Notes under the pieces: model-generated
Seen by the model: the letters and a program-made list of their open reading frames with translations, nothing else
What the model was told of the DNA's origin: nothing
Databases searched by the model: none
Part shown: in pieces, positions 7,640 to 32,965 of the stretch
Numbering within the stretch: the first letter of the stretch is position 1
Layout: the number at the start of each line of letters is the position of its first letter
Source: a virus
Direction: 5' to 3' (one strand)
Length of the DNA: 37,932 nt
Virus record (IMG/VR): IMGVR_UViG_3300032294_000991
Coordinates: 1 to 37,932 of that record
Position numbers and translations under genes: made by a program

Positions 7640-8182
7640 TTAAATAGACTCACTCCACACTGGAATAAATCGTCCATCTTCTGTTCTCGTATATGTAAGT
7701 ATACCGTCTCCCATTCGCCTTGTCAACTCTTGGCTTGTAGGAGTCATGTTGTTCGTTATTAATTTGTCTTTTCTTGGTTGTCCAATATGTATACTTGCAA
7801 GTATAGCACGGATCTCCCTAACATGCGATTCAGAGTAATAAGCTCTTACCTGCCATGCTCTTTCACCATTTAGTTTTGCACCAATTGGTGGAGGAATCAC
7901 TCCTCGTTTAATTAAACTTGGTATATATTTTCTGTGCCTATTGATCAATTTTGCAGTTTCTGCTACACTGTATGCACGCTCACGATTCTTTTTAAAGTCA
8001 GAGAGCAAGCATGTTTCTAAACGATCTTTGGTTATATTATAAAACGTAACCATTCCAGTAGAACGAGAGCTATGGTAGACCTTAACAAGATCACCATTGA
8101 TAAACCATACTTTAACCTTACCCTTAATTACAGGTTCGTTATTGTATGCTTGGCTCTGGATTTTTCCTTTTGAAGTATCCAT
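7640..8182 (-). CDS. Helix-turn-helix DNA-binding protein (MerR-like)
   Basis: 180 residues with a MerR/excisionase-like helix-turn-helix at about residues 70-100: AYSVAETAKLINRHRKYIPSLIKRGVIPPP, followed by a wing-like segment (RAWQVRAYYSESHVREIRAIL, about 108-128) in which YYSESHV resembles the R-Y-Y/F-xx-x-V element of MerR proteins. The N-terminal 60 residues look like a separate beta domain (KVKVWFINGDLVKVYHS). Likely a transcriptional regulator of the replication module or a replication-site binding protein; target sites are not visible. The ATG at 8182 has a clear AAAGAGGGA upstream and lies inside the 3' end of the zinc-ribbon gene (55-base overlap). Confidence 0.8.
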   Translation of the reverse strand: MDTSKGKIQSQAYNNEPVIKGKVKVWFINGDLVKVYHSSRSTGMVTFYNITKDRLETCLLSDFKKNRERAYSVAETAKLINRHRKYIPSLIKRGVIPPPIGAKLNGERAWQVRAYYSESHVREIRAILASIHIGQPRKDKLITNNMTPTSQELTRRMGDGILTYTRTEDGRFIPVWSESI

Positions 8183-9036: not shown

Positions 9037-11865
9037 CTATGGATAAACCGTTGTAGTTGTTGTGTCTGATCCACGCTTGACTCTAGATGTTCTAGTTGTA
9101 CCTGCTGTTCCAGTAGCACTTGCTCCAGAATATGGTGTTACCTCAACATAATACCAGTTTGAAGTAGTTGTATTTCTTGAGCTAAAATCTGCAACAAGTG
9201 TTCCAGATGTGCTTTGAACACTTGGTGATGCAAGTGCTGTCCATGGACCCGTTGATGATACTGCTGATCTATAAAGCATTATGCTTAAAGATGCAGCATT
9301 AGTGCTTGTAATTGTAAATCTAATATATGGGGCTGATGCATTTCCTAGTCCAAGTGCAGTTATTTGAGTAACATTTGGAACAATAGCTGTCCATCTAGCA
9401 TACATTGTAATACTTGATGGAGGATTAAATGATCCTCCAGAGGCTATTGGTCCGTACAAAGAATCTCCAGATGGCGTATCTCTATATCCAGCAAATGTAA
9501 ATCCAGCTCTTGTTCCTGGTGAAGGAGCAGTGTGTGATGTTCCAGCATTGAATGGACCAGTTGTTCCTCCACCTGTACCACCGTTTGCATTCCATGTTAC
9601 AGTGTATTGTGGCACTGATGTTGTAAGGCTATATCCAGCAGATGCAGTATTTCCTGTAGAAGATGTCACTGTAACAGTTCCAGTATAGGTAGTTCCTGCT
9701 GTAAGTCCAGTTCTTGATATAGATGTTGTAGTAGTACCTGTACCGCTAAATGCTCCAGTGGAACTAAAACTTGCTTGATTTGTTGAAGTCCAGTTAATTG
9801 TTCCTGTTGTTTGTGTTACACCAGTATTTGCCCCCATTGTTATTGTTGGTATTATTGGAGTAACAGTCCATATAGCAAAAAAAGTTATATTTGCTGTTGG
9901 AGTATAGCTGCCACCTGCTGCAAGTAATATAGGGTCTCCTCCAGACAGTGGGTTTCTCCATGTTGAAAAAGTAAACCCACTTCGTGTTGGAGTAGGAGCA
10001 GTAACAGAGTTACCAGCATTTACTGTGACTGATGTTGGTGACACTGTTCCACCGTTTGCATCCCAAGTAACTGTATACTGAACTAGTGTTGCTGAACCAG
10101 TTGTTTGTGCTGAGCCATTATTGTAGCCAGTTCTAGTGGTTGTAACAGTTACCGTTGCGCTTTGGCCATTAGAAAGTCCACTTACAGTAAATGCTCTAGT
10201 GCTTCCAGAAGGGGAACTAAAAGAAACTGAACCAGCGCTAGTAGATATTCCAAAAGTATAGTTTGCATCAAAGTTTGTTACTGACCCAGTAAATCCACCA
10301 ACAGTTGATGAGTTTGCTCCAAATGTTGGAGTTAAAGCAGGCCCAAAAGGCGTTCTTTGGCTTACAGTGTTTGATGCGGTTCCACCTAGGTTAATAGCTG
10401 TGACTGTTGTACTATAACTACGATCTGGTGCTAATCCAGATGGTGATACCACAGTTGCTGTAGTTCCATTTGCTGAGAACACAGAAATACCACTAACTGA
10501 CTCAAATACGCTAACGTTATATGATGTGGCTCCAGCAGATGACCAAGACACTGTAAAGCTGTTAAATGTTACATTAGTATAAGTGATAGTGGGTGTTGCT
10601 GGAGGTGGTGGAGGAGTTGTAAAAGAAGATCCCGCTAGTGTTGCTGTATCACCACTTGATGAAGTAATTGTTAGCGTAGGAGTGTATGTAGTGCTTGATG
10701 ATAAAGATATTGATGCAGATGTTGCTGTTGTTCCAGTAAATGGTGTGCCGCTTGCACCTGGGATAGATAAAGAATATGATGATTGATTACTTGATGTCCA
10801 TGATATTGTTGCACCTGAAGAAGTTATGGAGCCTGCTGTTGGACCACTATTAATAGTTGGTATTACAAATGACCCAGTAGATACTGCTGTTCCGCTACCA
10901 CTTGCATTAACTGCTCTGACTTGAAATGTATTGGTTCCAGAAAGTCCAGTCAGGCTAACTGATGTTGAAGATCCATTGTTAGTCCAACCTAAATTATTTA
11001 ACTGATATTCGTACGATGCGACTGCTCCACCTGTATTAGGTGCTGACCATGAAAAAGTTTTTGATCCTGCATTTCCAGTTGATCTAGTTAAGTTTGTTAC
11101 TGGTCCAGGCACACCTGCTAATGTTGTTATATTGGAAGCAATTAATGCGGTACCAACAATATTCACAAAATTGTATGGATATATTACAATATCATATGTA
11201 GTATTTGGCAATAAGTTTTCTACCAATACTGGACTTATTGGTGTGTTTACTGTTGTACTTGATACAAGACCAGAAGGTCCATATGCTTCTACTATATAAT
11301 ATTTTAAAGCAAAATTAGAGGTAAATGGTACACTTATGCTTGTTGAAGTAGCAACTATTGGAGCACCAGTATGAGACATGACAGCATTAGCAACAGAAAT
11401 TTCAATTGCACTGCTTGCCTCAGTTGTTGTTTCATTAGATATAGAGTTAAAGGCTTTTACTACAAATCTAAAAAATGTTGATGATTGATTTAAAACAAAA
11501 TGATCCTCCAACAATATAAGAGTTTTTGTATTGAATGACCCAGAAGATGGGTTTGCTATAAACTCAAAAGAAGTAACATCGCTCCAAGGACCATTTACGG
11601 TACTAGACTTTTCAAACTTAGAATCAAAGATATCTCCTGAATCCCAATGATAATTTTTTCCAGTCAGTGTTGCTGGGTATTGTGAACTATTTGATGATAT
11701 TTCTAATGAAGAATCTGGTTGTGGGCCTGGTTTACCAAAAAATATTTTCCAAATTGAGCCAGTTTTAATATATCCCTTAGATATATTTTTCCAAGCACTT
11801 CCAGTCTTTAGCTTAAAAGAAGCAATATCTTTCCACTCACTACCCACCTTTAGTTTAATTGTCAT
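9037..11865 (-). CDS. Repeat-rich tail adhesin with InlB-type B repeats
   Basis: 942-residue probable receptor-binding or accessory fibre protein at the tail tip. Order: three 14-residue repeats at the N-terminus (LKVGSEWKDI, LKTGSAWKNI, IKTGSIWKIF; residues 5-42), probably the virion-anchoring part; a Gly-Pro linker; a series of fibronectin type III-like and other Ser/Thr-rich beta domains (about 50-590) with a PPPPP linker near 420; then two InlB B-repeat-like (Flg_new) domains at 597-667 and 754-826, each beginning YTVTW-[DN]-ANGG and ending near the W-T pair. Between them lies a module (TSTNQAS...) that repeats one near 340-425 (TSSNQSS). The Thr-rich C-terminus ends in VYP. Such low-complexity beta-repeat adhesins usually bind cell-surface sugars. 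No Shine-Dalgarno is obvious; the start lies 12 bases after the previous stop. Confidence 0.85.
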   Translation of the reverse strand: MTIKLKVGSEWKDIASFKLKTGSAWKNISKGYIKTGSIWKIFFGKPGPQPDSSLEISSNSSQYPATLTGKNYHWDSGDIFDSKFEKSSTVNGPWSDVTSFEFIANPSSGSFNTKTLILLEDHFVLNQSSTFFRFVVKAFNSISNETTTEASSAIEISVANAVMSHTGAPIVATSTSISVPFTSNFALKYYIVEAYGPSGLVSSTTVNTPISPVLVENLLPNTTYDIVIYPYNFVNIVGTALIASNITTLAGVPGPVTNLTRSTGNAGSKTFSWSAPNTGGAVASYEYQLNNLGWTNNGSSTSVSLTGLSGTNTFQVRAVNASGSGTAVSTGSFVIPTINSGPTAGSITSSGATISWTSSNQSSYSLSIPGASGTPFTGTTATSASISLSSSTTYTPTLTITSSSGDTATLAGSSFTTPPPPPATPTITYTNVTFNSFTVSWSSAGATSYNVSVFESVSGISVFSANGTTATVVSPSGLAPDRSYSTTVTAINLGGTASNTVSQRTPFGPALTPTFGANSSTVGGFTGSVTNFDANYTFGISTSAGSVSFSSPSGSTRAFTVSGLSNGQSATVTVTTTRTGYNNGSAQTTGSATLVQYTVTWDANGGTVSPTSVTVNAGNSVTAPTPTRSGFTFSTWRNPLSGGDPILLAAGGSYTPTANITFFAIWTVTPIIPTITMGANTGVTQTTGTINWTSTNQASFSSTGAFSGTGTTTTSISRTGLTAGTTYTGTVTVTSSTGNTASAGYSLTTSVPQYTVTWNANGGTGGGTTGPFNAGTSHTAPSPGTRAGFTFAGYRDTPSGDSLYGPIASGGSFNPPSSITMYARWTAIVPNVTQITALGLGNASAPYIRFTITSTNAASLSIMLYRSAVSSTGPWTALASPSVQSTSGTLVADFSSRNTTTSNWYYVEVTPYSGASATGTAGTTRTSRVKRGSDTTTTTVYP
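9388..9606 (-). repeat. Second InlB-type B repeat (coding)
   Basis: Encodes residues 754-826 of the adhesin: YTVTWNANGG, a glycine-rich turn, AGTSHTAPSPGTRAGFTFAGY, and closing SSITMYARWT. This is the Listeria-Bacteroides repeat pattern (Flg_new) usually seen in bacterial surface proteins. Confidence 0.8.
9865..10077 (-). repeat. First InlB-type B repeat (coding)
   Basis: Encodes residues 597-667: YTVTWDANGG, NAGNSVTAPTPTRSGFTFSTW, closing ANITFFAIWT. Clearly homologous to the repeat at 9388-9606, about 85 residues apart. Confidence 0.8.
11740..11853 (-). repeat. Three tandem 14-residue repeats (coding)
   Basis: Residues 5-14, 19-28 and 33-42 of the adhesin read [LI]K-x-GS-x-WK-x-[IF] with an exact 14-residue period. 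The invariant Gly, Ser, Trp and Lys suggest a small repeated binding or trimerisation element at the virion-proximal end. Confidence 0.8.
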
Positions 11866-11877
11866 ATTATAAACCTA

Positions 11878-14800
11878 TTATGGTGTATACACCAATAATA
11901 CCGATCCACTTGTAGCATCTGGAAAAGCATTAGGATTAGATGCAAATTGATTTACAGTAATAGTAAACATATTTCTTAGTCCACCAGAGCGGTAGTCTTG
12001 TGCAGAGCCACTATAGTCTCCAGATATTTCTGCATTTTTGGCTACTTCAACCTGTCTTCCTTCTTGTCCTAAATAAATTCTTGATATATTCGCTACCGTA
12101 TCTGTTGTCAAAATGTTTTGCTGACTAGAAGTATTTTTAATTGAAAAAGCTGAACCTTCACTTTGAATATCATAACTTCCAACTCTTATTTTGCCACCAC
12201 TAGATAGATTTATTAATGCAGTTCCAGTTGCAGTTATTGCTGCTGTATTAGTATCTCCAGTAACACTCCAACCATTAACTAATTCCTCAGTAGTTGGACT
12301 ATAGTATCCAAATCCACCAAGCTGAGCCTTTATTGTTCCTCTGATTGTTGCATTATTGGCAGTTAGCAATCCTGATCTTGTAATAGATGTGCTAGGTGTT
12401 TCTCCTGCTACCCCTGCTGAAAAAACATTGGTGCCAGTTCCAAGCTCTACCCTAAAGTTTGTAGAAACATCTATTACGCCAGTTATCTGTATATATTTGT
12501 TTGTTGAATCAAGAACAAACTGCTCTGATCTATCTCTAATTTTTGTAGAATCTACAACCCATCCACCGATTAATGCTGCTTGAGTAAAAAATGAAATTGC
12601 ATTAGGAAGTGTTCCAACAGATGGTTGGCTTCCTATTGGTATGTTTCCTGATGATATTGGAGTATTAAGCATAGCAGTAAGTGTTACATTGCTTGCACCA
12701 ATTGAGGCTAATCCCTTATCATTAATAAGAACACTTGTACTTGTTGGACTTGTACCAGTGTAGAATGTGCCAGACTCTACCTGAAAATTACCTATAATCT
12801 TTCCAGATGTTGCTTCTACGTACCCATTAATTTGTGCACCTGTTGCATACATTGTTCCTGCAGATGTTACGTGAAATCCAGAAGCCAAATTTGTTGGTGG
12901 AGCACCAATATCTATACCACCACCAGATATCTGTACGTTGCTTGCAAAGACTCTACCAGTTCTGTCTACTGCAAACTGTGTTGTATCTCCACCAGCAGAT
13001 GTACTTCCAGAATAAAATTTGTAGAGTCCAGTTGATGATAAACCAGCATATTTTCCAGATGTTGGATCTAGCTTTTCTATTTTACTTGGAGCAATAACCC
13101 AATCTGCAATATTTCCAGCATTTGCAGTTATAGCACCATTGGTTGTATCAAGAGAGACTTGATTTGTTCCTTTGCGAATCAGCAAGCCATCTCTATTAAA
13201 GATAAATCCATCGCCAGTTAAGTTTCCTGGGCTTGTTGTTACATTTCCACTGTAGATAGATGCTCCAGTTGTAGTTAAAGCAACATTGCCTGCAAACTCT
13301 CCACCTTGTGCAATTATATTGCCATCAATTGTAAAGTCTTGTCCATCCCACAGCAAATAATTGTCAGTAGACCCACCAACCTTTAATCTTGCGCTATCTG
13401 AACTATTTAAGAACCAGTAGTTGCTATCATCAAAAAATAAACCACGTTTTGTTCCAGTTATACCCGTTGAGTTTGTTGGATCAACTCCCTGACCAAATTG
13501 AAAACTACCTGCAGTTATATAATCTGTAATTGCTGGTGTTCCAGATATAGATGTATCTGTAAAAGAAATATAGTCTGTAGATGTATTATTGTATTGATCA
13601 TATGTTGCAATTCCTATTTTATATGTTGCGCCAACTGATAAACCCTGAAGTTTATATGACAGTGTTCCTGTAGGTATATTTGCTTGATCTATTGGATAAT
13701 CTACATGAGAGTACACTGGATTAGATGTATCTGTTGTGAATCTAATTCTATACCCTCGTAAACTAGTTTCTGTAACAGCAGACCAAGAAAGATTTATATA
13801 GCCATTAAATCCAAGAGTTCCGCTAGAATCAATTCCTGAAGATGTTGACATTCCAGTTTGAGAAACATTTCCTGGTCCAGTTATGTCAACAGTAACTGGA
13901 GAAAGTGGAACAACTATTTGCTCTGCAGAATAATTAGAGGGATTTTCAAAATCATCATAATATCTTATAAGCAGATATGTGTTTTGGTATATAGTAGATG
14001 AAATATTTGCTGGACTTGTTCCAGAATAGACAATTCCATAGCCTGTAATTGATCCAGACACTTGGCTTGTAAAGTTGTTGTTAACAGTTATCTGGCTTCC
14101 TGATACTGATGTTATGTATGTATTTTCTGGTATACCAGTTCCGACTACAACATATCCAACAAGTGGAGAAACAGAAGCGCCCTTATTAGATATAATGCTT
14201 GAAAGAGTTACAGTGTTAGAGCCAGAAGAACCACCTGATGCATAAACTCCAGTAAATGAATCATACGCTGTTACTCCAGACCAGCTTGTATATTTTTGAT
14301 ATACTTCTGCATATACTGCCCCAGCAGGCAGTGTGTAAGAAACACTATAACCATTAACTAGTGCAGTTGTTGTAAATGTTGGTGTGATTCCAAGAAGAGG
14401 GTTTGGTCTTTGTGCAACAGTAAAGCCTACTCCACTAGATCTGTTATCTGCTGCATCTATACTTTTTAATATACCAGTGTAGGATGAGTAATGCGATCCA
14501 AATTGTGCAAATAAATCTGCTTTTGTAATTGTATAGGTTTGATTAAGAGACAGTCCAGTTGGAAAAGCATAAAAATACCCTACAGAAGAATTGGGTGCTG
14601 TTAGTCCAACCTGAAATCTAGACCCTGCATCTGTTGCTGGCAAAGTATAGTTAATAATAAGATTATCACCAGACCAAGTTCCCGTGACAGCAGTTACTTC
14701 ATTTGGTGGAACTAAGTCTGCAGATATTGGATTAGTTGGTGTTATTTTAACTGCATTTGAGTATGGTCCGTATAAACCTGATCCACTTGTATACCGTGCT

Positions 14801-15588
14801 TTTACCCATCGTGGTGATGTTGTTGGGGTAAGAACGTTAGCTGGCTTGATATTGCTTAGATATACCTGCTGATATCCAGTAGATGGTGCGGTTCCTGCAT
14901 CTGAAACTATTTCTTCTACTGATAAAAATTCATATGGTTTAGTACATACATCCGTCAATATTACACTATATCCCATTGGAATACTTGTAACAGTAATTAT
15001 TGGTGTGCATAAGTCTACAACATAAACTGGAATATCTGTTAATATTCCTTCTGGACCAAGACCTCCATCTTTGTCAAGTGCCCTTACTCTAAATTCAGTA
15101 AATGTTGTTTGAAAAATACCAAAATATTTTGTATTGTCAGCATAGTAAAAAATAACTTCTTGAGTAGCAGAATCTGAATTTAGTTTAGTAGAGTATAGTC
15201 TTGGTGTAATTGAGGTTCCATCAGAAAGTGTATACTCAAAACTATTTACTGTAGTATTTTCTGAAAGATCTAAATCTATATCAAAAGAAAACACTAATGC
15301 TGGGCCAGAATCTAGTTCTTGCCACTCTGCTGAAAGATTAGTTATTTCACCTGGAATCTTTTCAACTATTTTTTTATTGGTATTCTTATCTTCTTTTTTT
15401 GATCCGTCTGTTACTTTTGAACCGCCAAGAACTAAAGACTTTCCATCAAGACCAATGATATCAATTTCTGAACCTTGGCGAGAAAGGGTTTGTTTTATTT
15501 TATCCCATGATACTCTTGGGTCATCAGCATCAATAGATATAGTTGGATTTTTTGCAACAGACTTGTTGCTTCTATATTTTGATGTCAA
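11878..15588 (-). CDS. Long tail fibre / minor tail protein with FN3-like domains
   Basis: 1236 residues, probably the central fibre or receptor-binding protein following the hub. The N-terminal 90 residues are polar and Lys-rich with SRQGSEIDIIGLDGKSLVLGG. Several fibronectin type III-like domains follow (for example around 590-700, LSWSAVTETSLRGYRIRF and LSVGATYKIGIATYD). The last third is typical of siphovirus fibres: NYLLWDGQDFTIDGNIIAQGG, then repeated units such as GNIADWVIAPSKI, LIGGWVVDSTKI and LVNGWSVTG, which look like stacked beta units. The start codon is TTG at 15588 with GGTGATCAA upstream; no ATG occurs near the N-terminus, so TTG is the only sensible start. It begins 12 bases after the lectin-like gene and ends 12 bases before the adhesin. 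Confidence 0.85.
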   Translation of the reverse strand: MTSKYRSNKSVAKNPTISIDADDPRVSWDKIKQTLSRQGSEIDIIGLDGKSLVLGGSKVTDGSKKEDKNTNKKIVEKIPGEITNLSAEWQELDSGPALVFSFDIDLDLSENTTVNSFEYTLSDGTSITPRLYSTKLNSDSATQEVIFYYADNTKYFGIFQTTFTEFRVRALDKDGGLGPEGILTDIPVYVVDLCTPIITVTSIPMGYSVILTDVCTKPYEFLSVEEIVSDAGTAPSTGYQQVYLSNIKPANVLTPTTSPRWVKARYTSGSGLYGPYSNAVKITPTNPISADLVPPNEVTAVTGTWSGDNLIINYTLPATDAGSRFQVGLTAPNSSVGYFYAFPTGLSLNQTYTITKADLFAQFGSHYSSYTGILKSIDAADNRSSGVGFTVAQRPNPLLGITPTFTTTALVNGYSVSYTLPAGAVYAEVYQKYTSWSGVTAYDSFTGVYASGGSSGSNTVTLSSIISNKGASVSPLVGYVVVGTGIPENTYITSVSGSQITVNNNFTSQVSGSITGYGIVYSGTSPANISSTIYQNTYLLIRYYDDFENPSNYSAEQIVVPLSPVTVDITGPGNVSQTGMSTSSGIDSSGTLGFNGYINLSWSAVTETSLRGYRIRFTTDTSNPVYSHVDYPIDQANIPTGTLSYKLQGLSVGATYKIGIATYDQYNNTSTDYISFTDTSISGTPAITDYITAGSFQFGQGVDPTNSTGITGTKRGLFFDDSNYWFLNSSDSARLKVGGSTDNYLLWDGQDFTIDGNIIAQGGEFAGNVALTTTGASIYSGNVTTSPGNLTGDGFIFNRDGLLIRKGTNQVSLDTTNGAITANAGNIADWVIAPSKIEKLDPTSGKYAGLSSTGLYKFYSGSTSAGGDTTQFAVDRTGRVFASNVQISGGGIDIGAPPTNLASGFHVTSAGTMYATGAQINGYVEATSGKIIGNFQVESGTFYTGTSPTSTSVLINDKGLASIGASNVTLTAMLNTPISSGNIPIGSQPSVGTLPNAISFFTQAALIGGWVVDSTKIRDRSEQFVLDSTNKYIQITGVIDVSTNFRVELGTGTNVFSAGVAGETPSTSITRSGLLTANNATIRGTIKAQLGGFGYYSPTTEELVNGWSVTGDTNTAAITATGTALINLSSGGKIRVGSYDIQSEGSAFSIKNTSSQQNILTTDTVANISRIYLGQEGRQVEVAKNAEISGDYSGSAQDYRSGGLRNMFTITVNQFASNPNAFPDATSGSVLLVYTP

Positions 15589-26299: not shown

Positions 26300-26629
26300 T
26301 TACTCATCTGCATTGCTGCTAAAAAGTGTTGCTGCTTCAGAAAGTGGAACTCCTGATGCTACTTCAACAATCTTATACACAGTTGGCAAATCAATATTTT
26401 CTTCCAGAGCAGTAATATCTGCTGCTAGCTCTGGCTTGTATTGTTCCATTGCGATTAGTACACATTCCATAAGTAGATTAATTGACTTCTCATTGTCATC
26501 TACTACCTCTGCAATACCCTCAAACTTTTTCATAAACTTTCGTAAAAGTGAAATCTTAAGCGGTCTTAGAGTAATTTCTGTACCATCAATTAGCTTAATC
26601 TGTTGTGATTCATAAACAGTTGTTGCCAT
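26300..26629 (-). CDS. Short tail assembly chaperone
   Basis: 109 residues, the G-like chaperone that coats the tape measure during tail assembly. Its N-terminal 95 residues are plainly homologous to the first 95 of the long gene upstream (shared elements DGTEI, PLKI, LR-x-FM, LL-x-EC, IAM-x-QY, NIDLPTV); about half of the positions look identical. It ends after a short unique tail (LSEAATLFSSNADE). It has a strong Shine-Dalgarno (GGGAGGG, 26636-26642) and an extended -10 motif upstream (26656-26664), so it may be made in larger amounts than the long form. It sits directly before the tape measure gene, the standard place for these chaperones. Confidence 0.88.
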   Translation of the reverse strand: MATTVYESQQIKLIDGTEITLRPLKISLLRKFMKKFEGIAEVVDDNEKSINLLMECVLIAMEQYKPELAADITALEENIDLPTVYKIVEVASGVPLSEAATLFSSNADE

Positions 26630-26655: not shown

Positions 26656-26664
26656 ATTATACCA
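26656..26664 (-). promoter_or_regulatory. Extended -10 motif, short chaperone gene
   Basis: Minus strand TGGTATAAT. It contains the TAA stop of the long chaperone and lies 26 bases before the short chaperone ATG. It could raise short over long chaperone and drive the tape measure gene. Confidence 0.5.
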
Positions 26665-27373
26665 TGAGAGAGGGGTCTCTTGCGTCTTCATAATCAAGAC
26701 CCATACCAATTCCAAATCCAGCCTTCTTAGCATTTTGTCCCTGTAATGCAAGTACATCATTACTATCTTTTGTTGCTCCACCACTAAATACTCTTGCTTT
26801 AAGATTTTCCCATTCTTTTTGACCACGTTCTTCGTTGCCAGAGTCTTCAAGGTCAACACCTTGTATTGCTGCAAAAAACTTTTTTTCTTGATAATCTAGT
26901 TCTCTTTTGCTAGACACTATTGCTATTATTTCTGATAAAGATAATGACTCTTCTAGCTCAGAGTAGTCTTTCCATATACCCAACAAAAATACCTCAGACT
27001 CAAGCTTGGCTAAGTCAAAATCTTCCCATGATGGTCCTGGATCTCCTTTTTGAGCCTGAGTCTTCACATCTTCCTCTGAGTTTTCACCAACTTTAATGTT
27101 TCCAGCTATTTCTAAAATCTCATGAACTGTTGGCAAATCAATATTATCTTCTAGATCTTCTATGCTTTTAGATATTGATGGATAGTATTGTTTCATGGCT
27201 ATCCTTGTGCATTCCAGCAATACCATCATGGCTTCATCATCATTTTTTGTATATTTAATCTTATCAAAAGCATCCATGAACTCTCTAAGATATTTAATCT
27301 TAAGGGGCATTGTTTGTATCTCTGTACCGTCAAATAAATAAATATTTTTGGTCTTATATATTGATGTAGCCAT
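26657..27373 (-). CDS. Long tail assembly chaperone (G plus T-like domains in one frame)
   Basis: 238 residues. Residues 1-95 are the same domain as the short chaperone. The rest (about 110-238, from PSWEDFDLAKLESEVFLLGIW to the C-terminus) is the extension that other long-tailed phages add by a programmed -1 frameshift. Here both parts are fused in a single frame. No clear Shine-Dalgarno precedes the ATG at 27373, and a hairpin terminator (27388-27428) stands between it and the tail-tube gene, so expression should be low and depend on read-through. The stop codon TAA is embedded in the extended -10 motif of the short gene. Confidence 0.87.
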   Translation of the reverse strand: MATSIYKTKNIYLFDGTEIQTMPLKIKYLREFMDAFDKIKYTKNDDEAMMVLLECTRIAMKQYYPSISKSIEDLEDNIDLPTVHEILEIAGNIKVGENSEEDVKTQAQKGDPGPSWEDFDLAKLESEVFLLGIWKDYSELEESLSLSEIIAIVSSKRELDYQEKKFFAAIQGVDLEDSGNEERGQKEWENLKARVFSGGATKDSNDVLALQGQNAKKAGFGIGMGLDYEDARDPSLMV

Positions 27374-32434: not shown

Positions 32435-32965
32435 TTAGTTAAATAGGTCGGAATTTGTGAGGAAACGTCCGCCCCATAGGGATTTCTGAATCACTTTAGG
32501 TGATTCCTGTACAATCTCGCCGAGATCGCCAGACTTGCGGAAAGCGGTATCTGCAACTACGGCATCAACGGTCTTTCCAAATTCATTAAAGCTTCCCTTA
32601 ACTTCCTTAACTTCCTCTGTTACGGATTCAAGAGACTTTGTGATTGCATCAACATTTGCTTGCATAGCCTTTACTGTTGCTGCTAGATCGCTCAAGGCAT
32701 TAGTTACAGAGTTCTGAATTTCAGAAACTGCCTTAGCAACTTCTGCTGTTGCTGATGCAACCTCAACGATTGCTTCGTCAGCCTTCTCTGTTACTTCTTC
32801 AATAGAAGGAGCACTACCCTCTTCAACTGCTGGTGCATCTTCAGTTGCAACTTCTGCTACAACTTCTGGTGCATCTACTACAGCCTCTGCTGGAGCCTCT
32901 GGAGCAACCTCAACTTCATTAACTTCTGGAGTTGCTTCTGCAACTACGTCTGTATTTTCTGTCAT
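32435..32965 (-). CDS. Nested scaffolding protein (internal in-frame start)
   Basis: Predicted 176-residue free scaffold from codon 254 of the protease gene. The internal ATG at 32965 (MTENTDVV) is preceded 8 bases upstream by AAAGGAGG, a better ribosome site than that of the full-length gene. The cut falls exactly between the protease part and the acidic, coiled-coil scaffold part. This is the arrangement of lambda C/Nu3, where the scaffold is made from an in-frame internal start so that many scaffold copies accompany a few protease copies. Seen: the ATG, the Shine-Dalgarno and the domain boundary. Inferred: that both products are made. Confidence 0.75.
   Translation of the reverse strand: MTENTDVVAEATPEVNEVEVAPEAPAEAVVDAPEVVAEVATEDAPAVEEGSAPSIEEVTEKADEAIVEVASATAEVAKAVSEIQNSVTNALSDLAATVKAMQANVDAITKSLESVTEEVKEVKGSFNEFGKTVDAVVADTAFRKSGDLGEIVQESPKVIQKSLWGGRFLTNSDLFN

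Follow-up and report, generated by a model that had tools for sequence, protein, structure and literature searches.

We identified in an uncultured phage a long modular protein, likely a tail adhesin, that contains two copies of the InlB-type B-repeat (Pfam Flg_new), a building block of bacterial surface proteins. The DNA analyzed was the virus record IMGVR_UViG_3300032294_000991 (G000), a metagenome contig that was examined over its whole length of 37,932 bases and is called the window below. The protein of 942 amino acids (aa) is composed of distinct domains, its sequence is a mosaic with respect to its relatives, and the number of B-repeats varies among these relatives. We consider it likely that the protein is a long modular tail adhesin in which the B-repeats are exchangeable stalk modules; it would be located on the virion, the repeats would act as a stalk or spacer, and module swaps would change host binding. 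The gene and its modules are as follows, with related phages referred to by locus number (for example, L037).

9037–11865, minus strand: tail adhesin gene encoding 942 aa from an ATG start, the final large gene in the tail cluster (open reading frame [ORF] calls and PHROGs gene order).
11731–11865, minus strand: N-terminal module with three K-x-G-S-x-W-K–like repeats, aa 1–45 (alignment and segment map).
10891–11103, minus strand: best fn3 stretch, aa 255–325 (Pfam PF00041; Foldseek match to fibronectin 3t1w).
10612–10851, minus strand: Ser/Thr-rich module M1, aa 339–418, Ser+Thr 53% (38/66 residues identical to the inter-repeat module).
10351–10611, minus strand: module M2, aa 419–505 (32/76 residues identical to the inter-repeat module; a different module in the close relative L037).
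10078–10350, minus strand: module M3, aa 506–596, common to L037 (segment map; low model confidence).
9874–10077, minus strand: InlB-type B-repeat 1 (Flg_new), aa 597–664 (Pfam 50.6 bits, cut-off 27).
9862–9873, minus strand: mosaic switch, around aa 665–668, at which the sequence, in the direction of reading, changes from L037-like to L184-like (ten-residue identities).
9607–9864, minus strand: Ser/Thr-rich inter-repeat module, aa 668–753, Ser+Thr 47% (resembles M1 and M2).
9397–9606, minus strand: InlB-type B-repeat 2 (Flg_new) of the GGG subtype, aa 754–824 (Pfam 33.3 bits, cut-off 27).
9058–9384, minus strand: C-terminal FN3-like domain, aa 828–936, proposed distal end (AlphaFold model and VIA-align superposition on 8iyk_F).

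Both repeats matched Flg_new above the Pfam cut-off (E = 7.5e-15 for repeat 1 and 1.8e-9 for repeat 2), confirming the two repeats proposed in a preliminary description of this DNA, and no match to this domain was found in any of 14 control genomes. The whole protein scored 57.9 bits for Flg_new and 42.4 bits for fn3 (three stretches, cut-off 25), and thus the profile search suggested in that description yielded matches to both families. When a profile made from 15 phage copies (A3) was run against the PDB, the best match was Listeria InlB (2y5p, E = 3.1e-9), and all six distinct sequences matched at E ≤ 0.01 were InlB. The two repeats also resembled each other, with 39/70 identical residues (z = 20.1; no score as high in 300 shuffles) and 136/203 identical bases (67%). 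The Ser+Thr content of the adhesin modules ranged from 27 to 53%, and the inter-repeat module was related to both M1 (z = 9.6) and M2 (z = 7.5), with no score as high in 300 shuffles for either comparison. The claim of duplicated Ser/Thr-rich beta modules therefore holds in that the module has relatives within the protein; the other copies, however, lie at 10351–10851, outside the region to which the duplication had been assigned. A tandem repeat finder reported no array within the gene.

Structure prediction, which had also been proposed, supported part of this architecture. Residues 1–420 were modeled as an array of FN3 domains with a mean predicted local distance difference test (pLDDT) score of 81, and a Foldseek search with this model gave 303 PDB matches at E ≤ 0.001, including fibronectin 3t1w (E = 3e-11). 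In the model of residues 506–942, the B-repeats appeared as beta strands with pLDDT blocks mostly of 67–92 within a fair overall model, but structure searches returned no match to the beta-grasp-like fold of this family: the VIA-align listing for this model contained no InlB B-repeat, and its rows centered on model residues 323–431, the FN3-like domain. This C-terminal domain (~105–110 aa) superposed on the lambda tail tip chain 8iyk_F (Z = 10.2, root-mean-square deviation 2.7, 92 aligned residues). Since FN3 is a common fold and many unrelated proteins lay within 1 Z, this superposition implies no specific kinship to the lambda tail tip.

Direct searches with the whole 942-aa protein gave 17 pattern matches in viral_contigs, none of which was confirmed, and no match among 50,697 phage records at 1e-5. 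Since the adhesin was evidently too variable for direct search, neighboring genes were used as anchors, followed by the repeats themselves. A same-position adhesin was defined as the final large tail gene, standing next to the 180-aa phrog_9440 gene that follows it. The first anchor scans gave a usable adhesin at 12 of 21 loci, the gene being incomplete or lost at a contig edge in the other nine, and a later scan contributed 13 of 80 loci plus the L048 fragment, the remaining loci having another gene order or ending too early. The fragments of L010 and L016 were excluded from the counts, the position was assigned via the upstream tail gene instead of the anchor gene for L014 and L023, and L039, L040, and L046 are duplicate contigs in the set. 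The repeat-based scan, in which 41 of 80 loci were examined, is biased toward repeat carriers. A profile made from phage copies was more sensitive than Pfam (3, 3, and 4 copies versus 2, 2, and 3 in L004, L005, and L006) and was used for the counts by position.

Flg_new was present in 9 of 27 same-position adhesins, the window included, with 0–4 copies per protein: four in L006, three each in L004 and L005, two in the window and L021, one each in L007, L009, and L037, and at least two in L048, whose gene is cut by the contig end. Adhesins from the repeat-based scan carried up to eight copies (L119, L125, and L128). These results indicate that the repeat number is not fixed, as the comparison among related phages had been expected to reveal if the repeats were labile. 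The adhesin itself was far less conserved than its neighbor, with 18–45% identity to the window's protein in 12 relatives, versus 74–97% for the 180-aa protein in 10 relatives. The adhesins of this clade have a conserved N-terminus and a variable distal part. The N-terminal W-K module of the window (aa 1–45) was closest to those of L021 and L011, and a hidden Markov model (HMM) of seven N-termini matched 20 of the 23 same-position adhesins in which the N-terminus was present, but not those of L003, L005, and L007. This module likely docks the adhesin to the tail.

The distal ends of these proteins are diverse. PFFPPFF-type repeats end the adhesins of L011, L017, L021, L038, L044, L064, L125, and L129; those of L004, L005, and L048 end in poly-Thr or PPVT repeats with a Cys-rich tail, and that of L023 in SPAV repeats. 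In a second phage group (L140, L144, L148, L180, and L195), a W-K–like repeat was seen by eye at the C-terminus of the Flg_new proteins, in which the N-terminal HMM gave one weak match (L195). A further Flg_new match, at G035:C1:41278-41424 in the record of L052, lies in a 256-aa frame far from the anchor gene.

The arrangement of the repeats was examined in 29 repeat-bearing adhesins, a set that, like the second phage group, was defined by the N-terminal module and sequence appearance. In these proteins, 40 of 55 gaps between copies measured exactly five residues. Six gaps were of 88–107 residues, about one module each (the window, L184, L021, L006, L132, and L133; the last two look like near-duplicates, and both were retained). 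In all six, the nearest-neighbor list places the copy following the wide gap in the same GGG subtype as window repeat 2. This suggests that the module, the repeat, and the protein end frequently move together as one distal unit, although L021 departs from this pattern in its 382-residue end. The B-repeats could instead be receptor-binding modules themselves, their number and subtype setting specificity or avidity. Distinct subtypes do recur across different phages, and a possible "sticky patch" has been discussed for beta2, a strand of the InlB B-repeat in which a mutation impairs biological function (PMC8900821). However, 18 of the 27 same-position adhesins have no repeat, 16 of the 29 repeat-bearing adhesins have one further stretch of 98–124 residues beyond the last copy, and the fixed five-residue linkers suit a stalk, and we therefore regard a direct receptor-binding role as rather unlikely.

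The mosaic structure became apparent from two relatives, L037 and L184, whose replication genes are 90.1% (over 4,509 bp) and 88.2% (over 4,640 bp) identical to those of the window. The L037 adhesin, with 64% identity over 724 aligned columns, tracks the window's protein over ~aa 60–417 and 506–665, whereas the intervening module differs; it has a different C-terminus and one repeat instead of two. The L184 adhesin is a good match only from ~aa 666 to 937, with 60% identity over aa 597–937, 80–88% in aa 661–780, and 35% at the N-terminus. In ten-residue steps, L037 was the better match up to the end of repeat 1 and L184 beyond it. By hand-summed counts, aa 591–660 had 52/70 residues identical to L037 versus 38/67 to L184, while beyond the switch 132/160 residues were identical to L184 in aa 671–830 and 26/80 to L037 in aa 671–750. 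At the DNA level, repeat 1 was identical to the L037 copy at 150/205 bases (73%), and repeat 2 to L184 copy 2 at 172/212 bases (81%) and to L006 copy 4 at 78%. Other parts pointed to other phages: aa 1–60 were closest to L021 (83%), and L064, with an otherwise different adhesin, had the inter-repeat module in common with the window (75% identity across 244 bp of DNA, 9615–9858). DNA in common with the L006 and L119 adhesins was confined to the B-repeats, as was that shared with L021 apart from its N-terminus, the longest blocks being 217–222 bp.

An in-place duplication of repeat 1 was considered as the source of repeat 2 and rejected: the two copies are less similar in DNA to each other than repeat 2 is to the L184 copy, and L037 carries a single repeat, indicating that repeat 2 is not an expansion of repeat 1. 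These sequence comparisons are most simply explained by an exchange of segments among related phages, the joints lying close to the edges of domains; the UvsX-like recombinase of the same genome could aid such exchange. Tandem expansion in place does occur in a relative: at L119:5539-6672, a two-repeat unit has expanded recently, with 448/462 bases (97%) identical between copies and a partial third unit at 93–94% identity. Thus, the suggested expansion and contraction by recombination is supported in that the repeat number varies, but the second repeat of the window apparently came by exchange between phages rather than from the first.

Could the same pattern arise by vertical descent alone, with the B-repeats merely better conserved than their flanks? 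The similarity to the L006, L021, and L119 adhesins stops at the repeat borders, as slow evolution of the domain predicts. However, the closest relative differs from one part of the protein to another (L021, L037, or L184), and the highly similar spacer shared with L184 (aa 661–780) is missing in L037, which is equally close in the replication genes. Descent without exchange is accordingly improbable.

In the modular adhesin that we favor, the triple W-K repeat at the N-terminus would dock the protein onto the tail, an extended stalk would be built from InlB-type B-repeats together with FN3-like modules, and the C-terminal FN3-like domain (~110 aa) would sit distally and contact the host. The sequences show B-repeats and FN3-like modules acting as interchangeable cassettes, with a L037-like front joined to a L184-like back just past B-repeat 1 in the window's protein, and the five-residue linker between most copies in the arrays of relatives would maintain the register whatever the copy number.

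Next, we considered the origin of the domain. For 79 phage repeats, a domain tree of 68 columns was used for nearest neighbors only, with 12 duplicate records left out. The nearest neighbor belonged to the same phage set for 73 repeats (another phage for 60, the same protein for 13); for the other six it lay among non-actinobacterial cells (four), actinobacteria (one), or the second phage group (one). Among 80 cellular domains, a small set, the best identity was 62% for copy 1 (a Clostridia metagenome-assembled genome [MAG]) and 48% for copy 2. At E ≤ 0.001, Flg_new was found in 41 of 150 genomes of the family to which the Microbacteriaceae MAG G058 belongs (38 above the cut-off, up to 33 copies). 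The order that includes G059, a lake MAG, had it in 61 of 151 genomes (58 above the cut-off, up to 28 copies). The listed genomes of the G058 family measured 0.9–4.4 Mb. These cellular proteins are long, with frames of up to 3,815 aa, and several of them, judged by eye, have a signal peptide at the start and an anchor or OmpA-like end. Four members of the order of G059 (G264, G331, G336, and G213) have frames of ~3,460–3,815 aa that contain Flg_new arrays, a surprising find in genomes as small as 1.2–1.4 Mb.

The long reading frames with Flg_new arrays around G059 and G058 would offer a source for a recent capture from a host surface protein. The sampled actinobacterial copies, however, were at best 55% (copy 1) and 48% (copy 2) identical, versus 82–84% to phages, and no sampled cellular copy exceeded the values given above, making a recent event very unlikely. 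An old capture from bacterial adhesins is plausible, and the capture put forward in the preliminary description may have taken place, although most repeats are nearest to those of another phage. Within phages, a tblastn search of a 230-aa region against the 50,697 records at E ≤ 0.01 found two fecal contigs only, whereas one repeat pattern gave 151 confirmed stretches in IMG/VR; by this test, the domain occurs in many uncultured phages and is rare among deposited ones.

Several observations weigh against the modular stalk reading or complicate it. First, the adhesin matched no PHROGs family at E ≤ 0.01, so its membership in the tail rests on gene order, although tail-fiber–type proteins are so variable that a missing match is not decisive. 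Second, the model of residues 506–942 was only fair (mean pLDDT 65, predicted template modeling score 0.46) and a Foldseek search with it returned nothing at E ≤ 0.001, leaving sequence as the basis for assigning the repeat fold. Third, the repeats are absent from two-thirds of the same-position adhesins (four of these 18, L014, L035, L043, and L047, are cut by contig ends) and are therefore not essential, and around 7422–9662 of L051, in the same neighborhood, two smaller genes replace the expected adhesin. Fourth, as protein, repeat 1 was slightly more similar to the L119 copies (82%) than to the L037 copy (78%). Repeat 1 itself may have moved separately, and together with the L021-like aa 1–60, this means that the mosaic may draw on three or more sources. 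Finally, a false join at a repeat is conceivable in a metagenome contig, and repeats are generally known as sites of such joins; an assembly artefact is nonetheless hardly credible, since the window repeats, at 73–81% DNA identity to those of L037 and L184, show that these phages were not stitched together to give the contig, and mosaic steps also occur away from the repeats (~aa 60, 418, and 505).

The placement of the gene agrees with the tail adhesin assignment made earlier, as it ends the run of tail genes. PHROGs matches on the minus strand comprise ribonucleotide reductase, portal, head protease, tape measure, minor tail genes, and large tail proteins, followed by helicase, primase, single-strand binding protein, DnaE-type DNA polymerase, and the UvsX-like recombinase, which is truncated by the window end. 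The adhesin gene occupies the distal end of the tail run, after the tape measure, the minor tail genes, and a 1236-aa protein, and relatives keep the same order of large reading frames. Its two neighbors are listed below.

11878–15588, minus strand: large tail protein encoded upstream, 1236 aa from a TTG start (ORF call; fn3 match just below the cut-off).
7640–8182, minus strand: conserved neighbor, 180 aa, phrog_9440 (function unknown), used as the positional anchor (identity to 10 relatives as given above).

Elsewhere in the window, the adjacent genes at 26300–26629 and 26657–27373 both matched phrog_10504 and thus probably represent a tandem duplication, and the sole tandem repeat found, a 24-bp unit in 2.1 copies, lies at 32824–32873 within the head protease gene.

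The host is probably an actinobacterium, judging from matches of two proteins. The minor tail protein matched 131 phage records, 127 of Streptomyces and 4 of Rhodococcus phages, and the best 30 of 1,368 records matched by DnaE were all Streptomyces phages, with identity of up to 55%. A search for the 180-aa anchor protein in the order of G059 (296 genomes) gave no match, an empty result that is uninformative for a host link. The clade is probably of freshwater provenance.

Among known systems, the repeats of the adhesin belong to the same sequence family as the Listeria InlB B-repeat (PF09479), as the 2y5p match indicates, but here they are in a phage protein among FN3-like modules, in which a Pfam search found no leucine-rich repeats, and nothing points to a eukaryotic receptor. 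As in bacterial fibrillar adhesins, where stalk modules such as Flg_new, FN3, and PKD are arranged in series and a figure legend terms Flg_new a stalk domain (PMC9210967), modules follow one another along the protein, and some relatives of the phage adhesin match PKD with scores that do not exceed the cut-off. Unlike those adhesins, it has a W-K repeat N-terminus, its gene lies in a tail run, and no secretion signal or cell-surface anchor was seen by eye (no predictor was run).

Mosaic receptor-binding proteins, both tail fibers and spikes, are well described, likewise with a conserved N-terminal module and domain exchange elsewhere (PMC10684548); the exchanged blocks of the window's adhesin differ in including InlB-type B-repeats in variable number, and "Flg" is absent from the main text of that paper. 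Cultured Nanopelagicales phages have a variable island containing part of a tail fiber gene (PMC10202952). Ig-like adhesins are reported in gut phages in a paper whose main text lacks InlB, Flg, and B-repeat (PMC13370021), and a study of freshwater phages mentions no such protein in two passages (PMC6802176). Among papers on Flg_new names, none concerned phages by title or opening of the abstract. A search joining InlB B-repeat, Flg_new, and phage tail returned one archaeal genome paper, and broader searches gave nothing nearer among the papers listed; in the openly licensed literature searched, no description of the B-repeat as a phage tail module was found. Mosaic tail fibers are thus established, while the InlB-type B-repeat is an unusual building block for them.

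Together, these results suggest that tail adhesins in a group of uncultured phages use a block of bacterial surface proteins as a cassette that can be exchanged and counted, and they locate a joint within one gene. One may speculate, with quite low expectation, that phages and streamlined actinobacterial hosts share a B-repeat/FN3 set, used in tail adhesins by the former and in giant surface proteins by the latter, and that the tail B-repeats engage host B-repeat arrays directly, with zipper-like co-evolution of number and subtype. Since the same repeats occur in many small actinobacterial genomes, it becomes a testable question whether the modules of phage tails are shared with, or matched to, those of surface proteins of the host.

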